23,153 nucleotides of DNA from a virus. A program made the position numbers and the translations under genes. The stretch is taken from positions 1 through 23,153 of the IMG/VR virus record IMGVR_UViG_3300029448_000375. One strand, 5' to 3'. Under the pieces are notes generated by a model. That model saw only the letters and a list, made by a program, of their open reading frames with translations. It was not told where the DNA came from and did no database searches. Positions 13,905 to 21,933 of this stretch are shown here, piece by piece. Each line of letters begins with the position of its first letter. Positions within the stretch are counted from its first letter, which is position 1.

Positions 13905-14477
13905 ATGGCAAGAGAAAAACTAAAAGATTATGTAAGATACTATGACAACATTTTACCCGATGATATGTGTCGTAAGTTATGTGAGAAGTTCGATGAAGTA
14001 AAAGAAAAAGACCGAATCTTTCGCAGAAGTGATAAGTTTAACTTTATCGAGTTGAACATGCATGACATGATGGGTAAAGATACTAAATGGAAAGCTATTA
14101 CTAAAGAGATGCATGGTTATATGCAAAAAGCATTGTCTTTGTATAGAGCAGATACAGGTCATTGGGTGCCGGAGACTAGAAGATTCGAAGCACCTAGAAT
14201 CAAAAGATATGATCCTGATTTCGGAAACTTCGACTGGCACTTAGATTCATGCGATCAAAGATCAGCACAGAGAATGTTGGTTATGTTTTGGTATCTAAAC
14301 GATGTACCAGAAGGTGGCGAAACCATTTTTGACTTGGGTGCAGACAAACCATACAAGATTAAGCCAGTAAAAGGTAGAGTGGCTTGTTTCCCGCCGAACT
14401 TCCTATTCCCCCATCGCGGTGAGCCACCAAAGGACATATTCAAGTATGTGGTTTCATCCTATGCTTGCTATAATTAA
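13905..14477 (+). CDS. 2-oxoglutarate/Fe(II) oxygenase, prolyl-4-hydroxylase-like
   Basis: This is a 190-residue protein with the iron-binding triad H112-x-D114 (FDWHLDSCD) and H170 (FPHRGEPP). K180, ten residues after H170, would bind the 2-oxoglutarate carboxylate. MFWYLNDVPEGGETIF (about 127-142) is the typical strand pair between them. The family couples oxidative decarboxylation of 2-oxoglutarate to hydroxylation of a substrate; phage members may act on proteins or nucleic acid bases, and the target here is unknown. It has a purine-rich ribosome-binding site (AAGGAAAG) before the ATG. A second, divergent oxygenase lies at 15874. The gene ends just before a sigma70-like promoter. Confidence 0.87.
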   Translation: MAREKLKDYVRYYDNILPDDMCRKLCEKFDEVKEKDRIFRRSDKFNFIELNMHDMMGKDTKWKAITKEMHGYMQKALSLYRADTGHWVPETRRFEAPRIKRYDPDFGNFDWHLDSCDQRSAQRMLVMFWYLNDVPEGGETIFDLGADKPYKIKPVKGRVACFPPNFLFPHRGEPPKDIFKYVVSSYACYN

Positions 14478-15451: not shown

Positions 15452-15877
15452 ATGCCAGTAAAATATCTATTACCCCATGAAGTTTGCGAAGAGTTAGATA
15501 GACTCAAAACACAAAAAGAGAAAGTTGATTTTCTTCAAAGATATCAAAGTTTTGCCTTGAAGACTATTTTACAACTTAACTTTAATGACAATATTAAGCT
15601 TGATTTACCAGAAGGTAAACCACCTTTCCGAGCTGATGTGTGTCCGCCTGGTGTTCAGATTTCTGTTACAAAAAATGCTATTCAACCTATTGGTAAATTA
15701 GTAGAAGGTAGTCCAGTTTCAAAGTTGAAAAAAGAAACCATGTTTCTAAAGATGTTAGAGTCAATTAACGAAAAAGATGCCGAAATGTTGTGGAGAGCAA
15801 AAGATGGTATTCTTGAAGACCTTTATCCTAAAATGACTAAGAAACTTGTCGAAAAAGCATTTCCGGGCATACTATGA
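15452..15877 (+). CDS. Conserved T4-like phage protein (DUF6433-like)
   Basis: This is a 141-residue protein. It has a clear Shine-Dalgarno (AGGAG before the ATG). The C-terminal half (MFLKMLESINEKDAEMLWRA, then LYPKMTKKLVEKAFPGIL) matches a small family I recall from cyanophages as DUF6433, in which the K-x-L-V-x-x-AFPG-[IL]-[IL] ending is conserved. The N-terminal half is helical (EVCEELDRLKTQKEKVDFLQ). Function is unknown; its place directly after rnh suggests a replication or transcription accessory. It overlaps the next gene by ATGA. Confidence 0.75.
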   Translation: MPVKYLLPHEVCEELDRLKTQKEKVDFLQRYQSFALKTILQLNFNDNIKLDLPEGKPPFRADVCPPGVQISVTKNAIQPIGKLVEGSPVSKLKKETMFLKMLESINEKDAEMLWRAKDGILEDLYPKMTKKLVEKAFPGIL

Positions 15878-16479
15878 ATTACGAGATCGATGATACAGGC
15901 ATAGGAGTATTTGACGGATATTTTACTCCGCAAGAATGTGATTATTACATTCAATTTTGGAAAATGGCAAAAGAGTGTAATCTCACGCATGTGCACAGTA
16001 CTGCAGCAAAACAACATCAATTAATTGCAGATGATGAAAGGGCATGGGTAATACCATTTCCCACAATGGGACACGATATTACATACAATACTGGCGTTTT
16101 TCTTAACAGATTTTGGGACACAATTTATCCGATATACAGTGAAAAGTTTCGATTGAATGGTTATCGAATGACAATAAACATGATAAAGGTACAAAAAACA
16201 TTGCCCGGTGAAGGATATCATGTTTGGCATGCAGAAAAATCTCCAAGAGACAAAGAGAGATTATGGGTTGCAATGATGTATTTAAATGACGTTGAAGAAG
16301 GTGGAGAAACAGAATTTCTTGTTCAAAAAAGACGAATAAAACCTGTAACGGGCCGAGTTGTAATCTTCCCAGCAACTTATACTCATATTCATAGAGGCAA
16401 TCCACCATTAAGCGGAGAAAAGTATATTATAACTACGTGGGGAGAATACGCGTCCTATGACGATGTAGAAAATTTATAG
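15874..16479 (+). CDS. 2-oxoglutarate/Fe(II) oxygenase with HxE metal motif
   Basis: This is a 201-residue protein. The fold signature is the same as that of the oxygenase at 13905: VAMMYLNDVEEGGETEF (about 132-148), GRVVIFPATYTHIHRGNPP, and K183 ten residues after H173. The first pair of metal ligands is H119-x-E121 (GYHVWHAEKSP) rather than the usual HxD. HxE is known in some hydroxylases of this superfamily (for example asparagine hydroxylase AsnO), so activity is plausible. The substrate is unknown. The two oxygenases are divergent in their N-terminal halves, so they probably act on different targets. The start overlaps the previous TGA and the stop overlaps the next GTG (TAGTG). Confidence 0.83.
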   Translation: MNYEIDDTGIGVFDGYFTPQECDYYIQFWKMAKECNLTHVHSTAAKQHQLIADDERAWVIPFPTMGHDITYNTGVFLNRFWDTIYPIYSEKFRLNGYRMTINMIKVQKTLPGEGYHVWHAEKSPRDKERLWVAMMYLNDVEEGGETEFLVQKRRIKPVTGRVVIFPATYTHIHRGNPPLSGEKYIITTWGEYASYDDVENL

Positions 16480-17278: not shown

Positions 17279-17330
17279 ATAACGTAACCTCAAATACTCA
17301 GGCATATAAATACGTTTGAGGTTACGTTAT
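17279..17330 (+). promoter_or_regulatory. 16-bp perfect inverted repeat enclosing a late promoter and covering the RBS
   Basis: The left arm (17279-17294) and right arm (17315-17330) are perfect reverse complements over 16 bp with a 20-base loop. The loop contains TATAAATA (17305-17312). The right arm contains GAGG (17318-17321), the ribosome-binding site of the gene that starts at 17331, immediately after the arm. RNA reading through from upstream would fold and hide this site. RNA initiated at about 17318 lacks the left arm and stays open. T4 uses this arrangement for genes such as e and soc. The hairpin lacks a T-run, so it is not a classic terminator, though it could protect the 3' end of the upstream mRNA. 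Confidence 0.85.
17305..17312 (+). promoter_or_regulatory. T4-type late promoter TATAAATA
   Basis: Exact octamer in the hairpin loop. The predicted transcription start is about 17318, leaving a 13-base leader with GAGG at its 5' end before the ATG at 17331. It drives the envelope module 17331-20602. Confidence 0.8.
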
Positions 17331-18578
17331 ATGTCAAAGCAAGATTCTGCGGATAGCCCGCAAATACAAGAATTAGATTTAGAGACAGCAAAGAAAATCG
17401 CTTCTACTCTTTGTGCTCCTGGCGCACTCGATGAACAACAGAAACTTTTCATTGAGGCTGTTAGGGTCATCTTAAGAGAAGAACACGGATTTGAATTTGA
17501 AGAAGAAGAGTTCGACAGTGAAGAAGGAGACAAAGGTAATAATAATAACCAGTCTTCCACTGAATCGAATCCCGCAATAGAAGCAATTCTACAACAGTCA
17601 GCAACTACCGCAGCAGCCACGACAGCTGCTGTGTCAAGTGCATCTGCAACCACCGCTAGTACAGTTAGTACTGCTATAGCACAACTCCAATCACTCGGAA
17701 CAGCCGGTGTGATTGCGATGTCATCTGCCGTTTATTTCCAAGGTGGTGCAGTTTACGATAATGCCGAGACTATTGTAGATATGACCGTACCGATGGTCGA
17801 AGAACTTTTTGAGACAGGAACTATCACTCCCCCACCTGAATCTTCTTATTATGAAAGAGAAGTTCCAGTAACAGAAACCTTCCTTGGCAAACAAGTCGGT
17901 GCCGGTCGTCCACAACCAGAACCCTCGGAGGATAATGAAGGCGACGACAAGGAAAAAGATACGAAAGATGAAGGAGAGAGCAAGGGAGAAGCTGTTTCTG
18001 ACGGAGATAAAGATAAAAAGAGCATTGGAGAACCAAAGAAAAAAGAATCAGTTTTAAAGAAACTTTTCGGCAAGGATGAGAAAAAGTCGGAGCAGAAAAA
18101 AGAAGACTCCAAACCTGAAGCCGAATCTAAACCCAAACCAGAAAGTACTAAGAATGACTCGGTATCAAAAAGCGAAGATGGAAAAGAGACTGAAGGCGAA
18201 CAAGAATCCAAAGAATCTAAAAGTCTGTTTGGATACGTTAAACAACTTGTCCAACCAAAACCCGAATCGACACCGAACGAGCCAGTAAAACCCGAAGTTG
18301 ATGTTGCTGCAGCATCAGCCTCTGTTTCCGATGAAGAACTTAAGGAAGCAGGAATATCAAGGAAGGGGTTTGAACAATGGGTTGCAGATGGTGGGCCCTC
18401 TGACCGAACACCATATATAGAAATGGAAGACACACCACCCGAACCGCCGCCAGAACCAATGATGATGGACATGCCAGAAATGGAACAAGAAGACTTTGAA
18501 GCCTTTCAAGAGTCAGTACAAGAAGCCTTTAACATATTCGACTCTGGCAGATTAGAACAGGACGCGACACCAATATGA
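17331..18578 (+). CDS. Low-complexity acidic protein with Ala/Thr/Ser-rich segment
   Basis: This is a 415-residue protein I do not recognise. Residues 1-60 are ordered and helical (LDLETAKKIASTLCAPGALD, EAVRVILREEHGFEFEEEEF). About residues 88-140 are rich in Ala, Thr and Ser (TTAAATTAAVSSASATTAST) and then mildly hydrophobic (LGTAGVIAMSSAVYFQ), perhaps one membrane segment or a long helix. Residues about 185-320 are highly charged Lys/Glu/Ser/Pro repeats, likely disordered. The C-terminus has a Pro/Met stretch (EPPPEPMMMDMPEMEQED) and a final acidic helix. No signal peptide is seen. I chose the ATG at 17331 because an upstream in-frame ATG (17316) lies before the predicted late mRNA start. 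It heads the late envelope operon; a tether or scaffold role is a guess. Confidence 0.8.
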   Translation: MSKQDSADSPQIQELDLETAKKIASTLCAPGALDEQQKLFIEAVRVILREEHGFEFEEEEFDSEEGDKGNNNNQSSTESNPAIEAILQQSATTAAATTAAVSSASATTASTVSTAIAQLQSLGTAGVIAMSSAVYFQGGAVYDNAETIVDMTVPMVEELFETGTITPPPESSYYEREVPVTETFLGKQVGAGRPQPEPSEDNEGDDKEKDTKDEGESKGEAVSDGDKDKKSIGEPKKKESVLKKLFGKDEKKSEQKKEDSKPEAESKPKPESTKNDSVSKSEDGKETEGEQESKESKSLFGYVKQLVQPKPESTPNEPVKPEVDVAAASASVSDEELKEAGISRKGFEQWVADGGPSDRTPYIEMEDTPPEPPPEPMMMDMPEMEQEDFEAFQESVQEAFNIFDSGRLEQDATPI

Positions 18579-18760
18579 TCTATTTACAAATAATTTTTGA
18601 TTTGATTAAAGAAAACTTAGTAGACTTCGGCATTGCCGTAGTTGGATTGATGGCTACATTATCGATGTTTATACCAGAGGATTCTCCACTCGGTAAATTC
18701 TTTGGTATATTTGGAGCAATACTTAACTTCATTAAAGGATTATTTTCAAGGAGAAAATGA
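18575..18760 (+). CDS. Holin-like small membrane protein
   Basis: This is a 61-residue protein. A hydrophobic helix (LVDFGIAVVGLMATLSMFIP, about 15-34) is followed by a short polar turn and a second amphipathic or membrane helix (FFGIFGAILNFIKGLF), ending in a basic tail (SRRK). Size, topology and tail charge resemble small holins. No endolysin gene is recognisable nearby, so a lysis role is uncertain; a membrane anchor for the neighbouring envelope proteins is an alternative. It overlaps both neighbours by ATGA. Confidence 0.65.
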   Translation: MIYLQIIFDLIKENLVDFGIAVVGLMATLSMFIPEDSPLGKFFGIFGAILNFIKGLFSRRK

Positions 18761-19443
18761 AAAAATTAATAGCACTATTAACAGCAACAACATTTATATC
18801 TGCTTTTGCGGATATTGTTACCTTTACAGCTGGCACAGTATATATGGCAGATGACACTACCGCTATAACAGATGGTACTCAACTGTATGGCAATGTCTCA
18901 TCTTACCAAGAAGGAGACTTTTATTTGCAATACAACAGTCCTTCGCTGGATAGCCAGTATATAGGTACTTACTACGACCAAGGCAATGATGTTATTCACG
19001 GGCACTGGGATGGTGGTTTGGACAGCATTGAGATTGCTCGTAATGATAACGGACTGTTTACACTTAAGTATTTCTCATTGACCTCTAACACAGAGATAGG
19101 TGGAGGTGCAGCAACTGGTAACGAGAACATCTTCATTCAAGGATTTACAAATGGAGTAGCCATTACTGATAGCTACCGCATTCCTTCTGATGATTGGGGT
19201 GGCACATTTAACGATGTAATACTACCCAACGCATTCACTAATGTTGACAAAGTTTTAATTAGTGGTGAAGGTGCATACTGTTTTGGAATGGATAGCTTCG
19301 CGTTTAATGAAGCAAGCTTTGAAGAACTATTGACAGGAAACGAAGTAGAACTTAATCCAGTTGTACCAGAACCTGCTACGGTTGGTCTCATTGGTGTAGC
19401 TGCAGGTACACTAATGTTGACAAGGAAACGGCGTGGTCTATAG
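18757..19443 (+). CDS. Secreted protein with PEP-CTERM/exosortase sorting signal
   Basis: This is a 228-residue protein. The N-terminus MKKLIALLTATTFISAFA is a signal peptide. The body (about 19-200) is beta-rich with many Gly, Asn, Asp and Thr residues and resembles a secreted surface domain. The C-terminus is a complete PEP-CTERM signal: VPEPAT (203-208), a hydrophobic helix (VGLIGVAAGTLML, about 209-221), and a basic tail RKRRGL. In known systems a membrane exosortase cleaves at this signal and the product joins the envelope or exopolysaccharide matrix. No exosortase gene is in the window, so the host must supply it. AAGGAG (18748-18753) is a strong ribosome-binding site, and the start also overlaps the previous stop. 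The gene overlaps the next, a beta-barrel, by 11 bases. This combination looks acquired from a host of the exosortase-bearing type. Confidence 0.88.
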   Translation: MKKLIALLTATTFISAFADIVTFTAGTVYMADDTTAITDGTQLYGNVSSYQEGDFYLQYNSPSLDSQYIGTYYDQGNDVIHGHWDGGLDSIEIARNDNGLFTLKYFSLTSNTEIGGGAATGNENIFIQGFTNGVAITDSYRIPSDDWGGTFNDVILPNAFTNVDKVLISGEGAYCFGMDSFAFNEASFEELLTGNEVELNPVVPEPATVGLIGVAAGTLMLTRKRRGL

Positions 19444-20602
19444 ACTTCTTATTCTATTACTTCTTTTAGCGAATACGGCATTCGGTCTTTTGGCCGATGC
19501 CGTTATTCTTCGTACACATACGAGATTCGTACAAGATAGTAACATATACAATAGAACAGAAGGTAATGAAACTCAATCATTAATTGTATCCCAAATTGCA
19601 TCTCTTCAGCTAAATGTACTTCAAGACGAAAGAACACGGTTTAAGATTTTATACACACCAAAGATAGATAAAAGATTTTTTGACAATGAAGAGCTTGTCT
19701 ATCATACATTTAAAACAGATTTTCAAAGAGCACTAAATCGAAAAGTCCAAGTAAAAAGCTCATACTCGTATATGTTGACGGAAAGAGAACCAACTTCGGA
19801 CATTGATACCAATGTAGATATTACTGCAACTACAAAAAAAGCAACAGCTCAAATATCTTATACACCAAAAAGAGAGCACTCTTTCGTAATTAAATATGAA
19901 AACAAACAAAAGGAATGGAGCGAAAATCTTGAAACTACTTTCGGACTCACTAATGGAGACTACGATCAGCACAACGCGAGTGTTCAGTATGTTCACGAAC
20001 TTTGGAAAGGGAGATTATTTTCAACACAAAGTGCCGACTATTCATATCACACGTTCATCGGAGACCGCGGAGGATATGAGAAAGCAGGAATATCTGAACA
20101 ACTAATGTATGTTCTAAATCCGAAAACATATATCACACTTAAAGGTGGTTATGAACAAGTACTTGTTACGGATGAAAATGAACACGTTAAAGAATTTTAC
20201 GAACCTTATGCTTCAGGTGGTATTAATTCACAATTATTTAAAAACTTAACACTTGGTCTTAATGTCAAGTACGCAGTGGTGGAGTCTGGTATCTCTACGT
20301 TTAACGTAGCTAAAAAGATTACTGTAATTGGTCAGATGAAATACGATATTACAGGAAAGACTAAATTCATATTTTCAACAGTTGGTATGAGATCAGCATT
20401 TGACGCGGACTACGCAAGAAACTCTAGAACCATTGCTGAAGAAAAAGTAGATTACCTTTTAATTAACACGGCATCTCTAGCATACGATATCAATAGAAAT
20501 CAAGCACTTGAACTTGGTTATCAAGGCCCCCTCGTAAATCCAGAGGCAGATACGGCCATTATTAGACACAAAACTTACTTCGGATATAGGTTGACATTCT
20601 AG
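19433..20602 (+). CDS. Outer-membrane beta-barrel protein
   Basis: This is a 389-residue protein starting with GTG. The signal peptide is VYRLLILLLLLANTAFG (about 2-18). The body consists of alternating polar/hydrophobic strands (VQVKSSYSYMLTERE, TAQISYTPKREHSFVIKYEN, TYITLKGGYEQVLV, LTLGLNVKYAVVE). The C-terminus, KTYFGYRLTF, ends in Phe after alternating aromatic residues, which is the BAM-complex recognition pattern for outer-membrane barrels. Similar barrels (BBP2-type, as I recall) occur beside exopolysaccharide and PEP-CTERM loci in Verrucomicrobiota-type bacteria. The 11-base overlap with the PEP-CTERM gene implies coupled translation. Likely roles include exporting or anchoring the PEP-CTERM product, masking a receptor, or perturbing the outer membrane. 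A pore role is not excluded. Confidence 0.8.
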   Translation: MVYRLLILLLLLANTAFGLLADAVILRTHTRFVQDSNIYNRTEGNETQSLIVSQIASLQLNVLQDERTRFKILYTPKIDKRFFDNEELVYHTFKTDFQRALNRKVQVKSSYSYMLTEREPTSDIDTNVDITATTKKATAQISYTPKREHSFVIKYENKQKEWSENLETTFGLTNGDYDQHNASVQYVHELWKGRLFSTQSADYSYHTFIGDRGGYEKAGISEQLMYVLNPKTYITLKGGYEQVLVTDENEHVKEFYEPYASGGINSQLFKNLTLGLNVKYAVVESGISTFNVAKKITVIGQMKYDITGKTKFIFSTVGMRSAFDADYARNSRTIAEEKVDYLLINTASLAYDINRNQALELGYQGPLVNPEADTAIIRHKTYFGYRLTF

Positions 20603-20616
20603 TCAGCTTTTGGTAG

Positions 20617-20624
20617 TATAAATA
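20617..20624 (+). promoter_or_regulatory. T4-type late promoter TATAAATA in a short dyad
   Basis: Exact octamer. The predicted transcription start (20617+13) is base 20630, the A of the next ATG. TGGTA (20611-20615) and TACCA (20623-20627) form a 5-bp dyad around it. Confidence 0.65.
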
Positions 20625-20996: not shown

Positions 20997-21671
20997 ATGA
21001 ACTTTAAACATGAACCGATTGAAGTAAATTATGATCTTGAGGCAGAAACATCTGAAACAGGTCGCGTTTATAAAACACCAGATGGTGAAGCTTATCCATC
21101 TATAACAACAGTACTTGGAAAACGAACCAAGAAAGCTATCCTTGAATGGAGAAAACGCGTTGGCGAAGAAGAAGCCAATCGTGTATCACGAATTGCAACT
21201 GGAAAAGGAACTAAGGTTCACCAGATGGCCGAGGACTTTCTTAATAATGATCCTGTCTATACGCAAGGTTTTCAAGAGATGCCCCATATTGTAGAAAGTT
21301 GGGAAGCACTCAAACCACTACTAACAGAAAACGTTGGAGTTATTCGAGCACAGGAAATACCTCTGTATTCAGATGAACTAAAGGTAGCGGGTCGAGTTGA
21401 CTTGATTGCCGAATGGGATGGAGAACTTTCTGTAGTTGATTTTAAAACATCAAAACGTATTAAAGATAGAAGTGAAATATCAAACTACTTTATGCAAGCG
21501 TGTGCTTATGCTTTAATGTTAGAAGAACGAACTGGAATCTGTATAAATAAATTAGTTATCGCGATGGTCGCTGACGGAGGCTTTACTAAAGTATTCGTAG
21601 AAAATCGTGAGGACTGGATAGACAAATTGATTGAGGAAATTACTTATTATTATGAACACCGATATGATTGA
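20997..21671 (+). CDS. RecB/MGME1-like PD-(D/E)xK exonuclease
   Basis: This is a 224-residue protein. The nuclease core is visible: GTKVHQMAEDFL (H75), an AQEIPL Glu (E120), GRVDLIAEW (D135), VVDFKTSKR (D148, K150), and the RecB-type motif FMQACAYAL (Q167, Y171). PSITTVLG (34-41) is the typical N-terminal motif of the MGME1/Cas4-like branch. These enzymes degrade single-stranded DNA ends; in a phage it could act in recombination, host-DNA breakdown or genome-end processing. The size is typical for phage members. It overlaps the start of the next gene. Confidence 0.87.
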   Translation: MNFKHEPIEVNYDLEAETSETGRVYKTPDGEAYPSITTVLGKRTKKAILEWRKRVGEEEANRVSRIATGKGTKVHQMAEDFLNNDPVYTQGFQEMPHIVESWEALKPLLTENVGVIRAQEIPLYSDELKVAGRVDLIAEWDGELSVVDFKTSKRIKDRSEISNYFMQACAYALMLEERTGICINKLVIAMVADGGFTKVFVENREDWIDKLIEEITYYYEHRYD

Positions 21672-21933
21672 AACAATACTTGGAATTACATATAATGCTT
21701 GTTTTATCAGTTGTTACTGGCCACAAATCATCAAGAGTATCCGAACTAAGTCCGTCGAGGATGTAAGTATTCATCTTTTCACACTTTCAATCGTAGGATA
21801 TACCTCTGCAATTTTTTACACGCTTCTTCGTGTTGGATTTGATTTCTTTTGGCTTTTTAACTACGTTGTTTCTGGTATCAGTGCAATTATAATGACAATC
21901 GTTTATTTTATGTATAGGGAAAAATCTGTATGA
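21652..21933 (+). CDS. PQ-loop membrane protein, SemiSWEET-like
   Basis: This is a 93-residue protein (89 if the ATG at 21664 is used). Three transmembrane helices are evident: about ILGITYNACFISCYWPQII, then LFTLSIVGYTSAIFYTLL, then WLFNYVVSGISAIIMTIVYF. The first ends with the PQ-loop signature CYWPQIIKSIRTKSVEDVS. This length and three-helix layout match SemiSWEET sugar transporters, which work as dimers and move small sugars by facilitated diffusion. The substrate is not predictable. The start is ambiguous between 21652 and 21664; both lie within the end of the nuclease gene. The next gene overlaps by ATGA. Confidence 0.75.
   Translation: MNTDMIETILGITYNACFISCYWPQIIKSIRTKSVEDVSIHLFTLSIVGYTSAIFYTLLRVGFDFFWLFNYVVSGISAIIMTIVYFMYREKSV

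Follow-up and report, generated by a model that had tools for sequence, protein, structure and literature searches.

A PEP-CTERM protein in a late phage cassette, a candidate module for remodelling the host envelope

Introduction

The closest described counterpart of the locus analysed here is the PEP-CTERM/exosortase (EpsH) system (PMC1569441), with which it shares a signal peptide, PEP motif, helix and basic cluster, as well as tailed bacterial relatives in exosortase-bearing genomes. In contrast to that system, the protein studied here is encoded by a phage, as part of a fixed late cassette that also specifies two proteins of unknown family; some phage tails, such as VPEANS and IPEAS, deviate from the model, and exosortase is missing from the phage records. 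A second comparison is with translocons of the EpsX/WzpX type, 18-strand barrels that are paired with short OPX proteins and have AlgE as their closest structural relative (PMC9601211, PMC9603273). The barrel of the present locus likewise has 18 modelled strands, AlgE as nearest fold and bacterial relatives located beside a short Poly_export-SLBB protein; unlike those barrels (PMC9601211, PMC9603273), however, the phage copy follows a PEP-CTERM gene and has neither OPX nor synthesis genes with it. A third comparison concerns regulation. In phage T4, early synthesis from the genes for lysozyme (gene e), soc and I-TevI is prevented by a hairpin that contains the late promoter and masks the Shine-Dalgarno sequence (PMC3014915, PMC2988022). 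The same arrangement of late promoter and Shine-Dalgarno-hiding hairpin occurs here, but it controls an envelope cassette instead of lysozyme, and its sequence is unrelated to the gene e lock (PMC3014915).

Results and discussion

A late operon encoding a PEP-CTERM protein

The window, that is, the whole stretch of 23,153 nucleotides that was analysed, belongs to a 25.9-kb viral record with T4-like genes (ribonucleotide reductase, exonucleases and a late-transcription regulator family), and its T4-like core genes match those of Methylophilales, Synechococcus and other phages at <60%. The operon and its flanking elements comprise the following features.

17279-17330, plus strand: hairpin (arms 17279-17295 and 17314-17330; dG -22.0, z -6.6)
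17305-17312, plus strand: T4-type late promoter TATAAATA, exact match, in the hairpin loop and before the operon
17331-18578, plus strand: c1 open reading frame, first cassette gene, 415 aa (the listed frame starts at TTG 17316)
18575-18760, plus strand: c2 open reading frame, second cassette gene, 61 aa, its start overlapping the c1 stop
18757-19443, plus strand: PEP-CTERM protein, type A, 228 aa, ATG start
19363-19434, plus strand: PEP-CTERM sorting signal, VPEPAT - helix - RKRR (TIGR02595; helix modelled)
19433-20602, plus strand: outer-membrane barrel, 389 aa, GTG start, 18 strands in the model
20617-20624, plus strand: next late promoter TATAAATA, exact match, opening the following unit and bounding the operon

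The initial annotation had described a phage-encoded PEP-CTERM protein with a signal peptide, overlapping by 11 bases a gene for an outer-membrane barrel, both under a late promoter. The 228-aa protein has the open reading frame described and scores 23.8 bits against TIGR02595 of NCBIfam (cut-off 16) over residues 203-226, within which the helix is modelled at residues 208-226. For PF07589, scores lay around the cut-off of 20.7, reaching 23.2 bits in the genome search and falling just below it, at 19.8 bits, on the whole protein. The PEP motif and hydrophobic helix are accompanied by a C-terminal basic cluster (RKRR) and by an N-terminal hydrophobic signal, MKKLIALLTATTFISAFA; the N-terminus reads MKK-LIALLTATTFISAFA-D, and a signal peptide is predicted from its sequence and hydropathy. 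In a wider set, 7 of 30 records pass the PEP-CTERM model and the remainder have PE[AI]-type tails. The domain preceding the tail (type A) is a predicted sandwich resembling carbohydrate-binding modules, with many invariant residues kept from bacteria to phages. As the fold search matched the common carbohydrate-binding sandwich only (Foldseek E about 1e-3, Z at most 10.9), no ligand is claimed.

The overlap of the PEP-CTERM and barrel genes is exactly 11 bases, and the late promoter is likewise an exact TATAAATA, though one lying before the operon and not directly before the PEP gene. Eight exact sites occur in the window, all on the plus strand, against 2.1 expected.

A hairpin lock on translation

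As in T4 gene e, a hairpin encloses the late promoter and covers the ribosome site. The stem is a perfect 17 bp, and its 3' arm contains the c1 Shine-Dalgarno sequence GAGG (17318-17321); the remaining seven copies of the promoter lack such a hairpin (z -1.9 to +2.0). The same promoter-in-hairpin arrangement occurs in four related contigs (L073, L075, L076 and L077; z -5.4 to -6.3); in L006, L074, L024, L094 and L096 it is weak or missing, L006 and L074 being among the weak cases. In a comparison of seven T4-like leaders, both sides had changed in 6 of the 14 pairs, a count that none of 500 shuffles reached and that the relatedness of the leaders can inflate. By analogy with T4 gene e, read-through RNA would fold the hairpin and hide the ribosome site, such that only RNA from the late promoter would be translated. 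Since T4 uses this lock for soc and homing endonucleases as well, and not for lysis genes alone (PMC3014915, PMC2988022), the hairpin speaks to lateness, not to purpose.

The conserved unit is c1-c2-PEP-CTERM

Relatives of the PEP protein are encoded in 43 viral contigs, and a scan with c1 added 24 more, so that the cassette, a feature of many marine phages, is present in 67 viral contigs besides the window, of T4-like, T7-like and siphovirus type. Neighbour clustering placed c1 and c2 before the PEP gene almost everywhere, and the order c1-c2-PEP tail holds in 52 of the 52 contigs long enough to judge (the window and 51 others), as counted by hand from the cassette listings, the remaining contigs being cut by their ends. 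The pairing of PEP gene and barrel, initially taken as the basic unit, was rejected: the barrel is absent from L003, the siphovirus group, the L004 group and L024, being restricted to T4-like contigs, and the constant partners are the upstream c1 and c2. The real unit is the c1-c2-PEP-CTERM cassette, with the barrel an addition of T4-like versions. The genes around it vary, from a T7-like portal (L003) and lambda-like tail genes (L009 group) to T4-like genes in the window, L006 and the L004 group, the last also with tail fibre and ClpA-like genes. As neighbouring genes differ around the same cassette, the cassette travels between phage types.

This recurrence, found in the search of other phages that the initial annotation had proposed, also bears on whether the window might hold a host gene owing to misassembly or a prophage border. 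The PEP protein does have relatives in bacterial chromosomes, but the same cassette stands among differing phage neighbours in 67 other viral contigs, and c1 and c2 are missing from the bacterial loci. The recurring gene order is not a matter of chance or assembly error and refutes a misassembly or prophage border, leaving a host gene of this kind extremely improbable.

Among 50,697 deposited phage records, tblastn detected no relative of c1, of the PEP protein or of the barrel, and the literature searched held no link between phages and exosortase substrates of their own. The proteins c1 and c2 are outside known families, the other parts come from known families, and the system as a whole is without a known counterpart. 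The c1 protein is acidic and of low complexity (22% acidic residues; maximum hydropathy 1.23) and holds a conserved GTAGVxAxSSAxYFQ segment whose hydropathy (about 1.0-1.3) is weak, which leaves c1 a mere candidate for membrane insertion. Relatives of c2 are 49-64 aa long, with one strong hydrophobic helix (hydropathy 2.12 in the window copy) and a cationic tail, and c2 is, judged by these properties, holin-like in shape; no holin family matched it, with no PHROG match for the copies in the window and L017 and no Pfam family above cut-off.

The shape of c2 raises the alternative of a lysis cassette, in which c2 would be a holin-like pore former, c1 its regulator, and the PEP protein and barrel accessories that break the envelope. 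The lysozyme-type lock would suit such a role, as would the T7-like contig L087, in which a 61-aa holin-like frame and a PF00959 lysozyme come after the cassette. Yet the holin-like gene of L087 is separate from c2, c2 itself matches no holin family, and the constant presence of an exosortase tail would go unexplained; we consider this alternative unlikely. Other lysis-type genes also lie nearby in some cassette phages, and the cassette is therefore not the sole lysis system.

Two further small genes adjoin the cassette. In the siphovirus group, a lipoprotein-like gene (SCGGSSS; L016:1378-1668, minus strand) lies directly downstream on the opposite strand, and its product is a possible cassette partner. 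In the L011/L004 group, the gene facing the cassette (L011:1533-1862, minus strand) encodes a protein of 110 aa that has several hydrophobic segments and a holin-like shape but no Pfam or PHROG match.

A constant tail behind exchangeable domains

In the 24 contigs found via c1, c1 and c2 are followed by a PEP-CTERM protein with a different front sandwich domain (type B), and a profile comparison of types A and B aligned 58 columns, all C-terminal. The PEP tail is the constant part, with the preceding domain swapped between two unrelated types. Four T7-like contigs (L084, L086, L087 and L089) lack a separate PEP gene; in these, an overprinted PEP-CTERM tail frame runs through the last part of c1 and all of c2, at the following positions.

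L084:3341-3607, overprinted PEP-CTERM tail frame
L086:3340-3610, overprinted PEP-CTERM tail frame
L087:3332-3628, overprinted PEP-CTERM tail frame
L089:3380-3640, overprinted PEP-CTERM tail frame

The frame contains no stops in these four, as against 1-9 stops in the 24 contigs with a separate PEP gene. Under synonymous recoding, the chance of an open frame is 0.03-0.04 for each contig, values that are not fully independent as the four contigs are related. Because the overprinted frame lacks its own signal peptide, its translation may involve an internal start or a +1 shift at the c1 stop (ATATGA).

The exchange of domains before an unchanging tail, and the carbohydrate-binding-like sandwich, would both fit surface masking or superinfection exclusion, whereby an exosortase-displayed PEP protein hides receptors or stops progeny from re-adsorbing to debris and neighbouring cells, the swaps reflecting different receptors. 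Phage superinfection-exclusion lipoproteins such as Llp (entry 8a60) are alike in being phage proteins sent to the host envelope, but differ from the present protein, which has an exosortase tail instead of a lipid anchor and is expressed late. Superinfection blocking, as initially proposed, is possible; it fits less well with the lysozyme-type late lock and with the holin-like gene and lysozyme beside the cassette in L087. Classical exclusion genes act early, whereas this cassette has both a late promoter and a late lock, and masking accounts for neither c1, c2 nor the barrel; we regard it as the next most likely reading, though a doubtful one.

A constant tail with all else swapped would also be expected of a decoy, a PEP protein that saturates the host exosortase or polysaccharide exporter and thereby keeps host coat proteins from display, and the overprinted forms are indeed little more than a tail. 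The many invariant residues of the type A domain, from bacteria to phages, would be unexpected in a mere decoy, which makes such a role quite improbable.

The barrel and the probable host of the T4-like group

The second gene of the initial pair proved to encode an outer-membrane barrel, as predicted: the protein has a signal sequence and a C-terminal Phe, and its AlphaFold model has 18 strands (pLDDT 80, pTM 0.71). It was found only in the window, L002, L006, L008, L073-L076 and L094-L096, and accompanies PEP proteins of either type. Among solved structures, the alginate exporter AlgE is closest in fold (Z 22.6, rmsd 4.0, 321 aligned residues), followed by OprD-type porins (Z 20-21). A bacterial relative matches the Pfam family BBP2_2 (33.5 bits, cut-off 23.7); the window barrel does not, and two relatives reach at best E 0.0021. 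Direct membership of TIGR03016, the PEP-CTERM-associated outer-membrane proteins, was rejected, the L073 relative scoring 22.4 bits against a cut-off of 90.85, and the match of the phage barrel to this family is only a hint.

Of 289 sampled Verrucomicrobiota genomes, 41 encode a relative of the barrel (best E 7e-34); the 289 and 284 genomes sampled from the phyla of Rheinheimera and Phycisphaerales encode none. In the Verrucomicrobiota genomes examined, these relatives lie in polysaccharide-export operons, next to a Wzz/kinase gene and the gene for a short lipoprotein of the Poly_export/SLBB kind; the OPX partner present beside the bacterial relatives is missing from the phage operon, in which the PEP gene precedes the barrel. 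These relatives point to the Verrucomicrobiota as the source of the barrel and the probable host of the T4-like group, a phylum among those that the initial annotation had named for a search of the gene pair. The T7-like and siphovirus contigs have no barrel, and the host call covers the T4-like group only. The PEP protein itself was uninformative for calling the host, being found in 1 of 388 Verrucomicrobiota genomes, and a search for c1 prophages in 338 Verrucomicrobiota genomes, run without a positive control, found nothing.

Exosortase and a late envelope-remodelling module

No exosortase was found in the 31 viral records examined. Exosortase (PF09721) is present in 15 of the 18 bacterial genomes in which the PEP protein has a relative, including every genome in which the chromosomal relative has a tail (15/15), and in 14 of 14 barrel-bearing Verrucomicrobiota tested versus 145 of 195 in the phylum sample, all counts being from sampled bacterial genomes. 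The three exosortase-free genomes are one Flavobacteriaceae MAG and two actinobacterial MAGs. In actinobacterial genomes without exosortase, the type A domain stands at the end of proteins that lack the tail (L041:6001-6507 and L042:3-617), and two contigs of the Flavobacteriaceae MAG (L033 and L034) carry the whole phage cassette and are therefore probably misbinned phage DNA. Since exosortase is missing from all 31 viral records and present in every sampled bacterium with a tailed relative, we infer that the phage protein uses the exosortase of its host, which is the hijack the initial annotation had proposed.

Taken together, the cassette may be a late, host-exosortase-dependent envelope-remodelling module for phage release in exosortase-bearing hosts (Verrucomicrobiota for the T4-like group), a reading to which we give about an even chance. 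The lysozyme-type lock and the lysis genes beside the cassette in L087 also count in its favour. The parts of this module are well supported, and its purpose we infer from them. Through the gene overlaps, coupled translation would yield c1, c2 and the PEP-CTERM protein, together with the barrel in T4-like phages. Given its signals, the PEP protein would pass through Sec, remain anchored by its C-terminal helix and undergo processing by the host exosortase. The barrel, by its fold and relatives, would insert into the outer membrane and add a channel of the polysaccharide-export type, and c1 and c2 would act inside the cell or at the inner membrane. As a net effect, the exosortase/exopolysaccharide coat would change or open as infection ends, letting progeny out and away. 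More tentatively, virion release could require exosortase display as a late step, the tail being the conserved working part, the fronts swappable or, in some T7-like phages, replaced by an overprinted frame, and the barrel borrowed in T4-like phages.

That three phage morphotypes share the cassette suggests that phages have to deal with an exosortase-dependent coat, as a barrier or as a tool. The cassette also provides sequence handles for Verrucomicrobiota phages, and its short phage-made substrates would allow direct tests of exosortase processing and outer-membrane polysaccharide export.

Other genes lie near the cassette in the window. A PQ-loop membrane protein (PF04193, 45.5 bits) is encoded at 21631-21933, overlapping the end of an exonuclease gene, and two related proteins (cluster c14) are encoded close to the cassette at 13905-14477 and 15874-16479, the latter matching the 2OG-Fe(II) oxygenase family.
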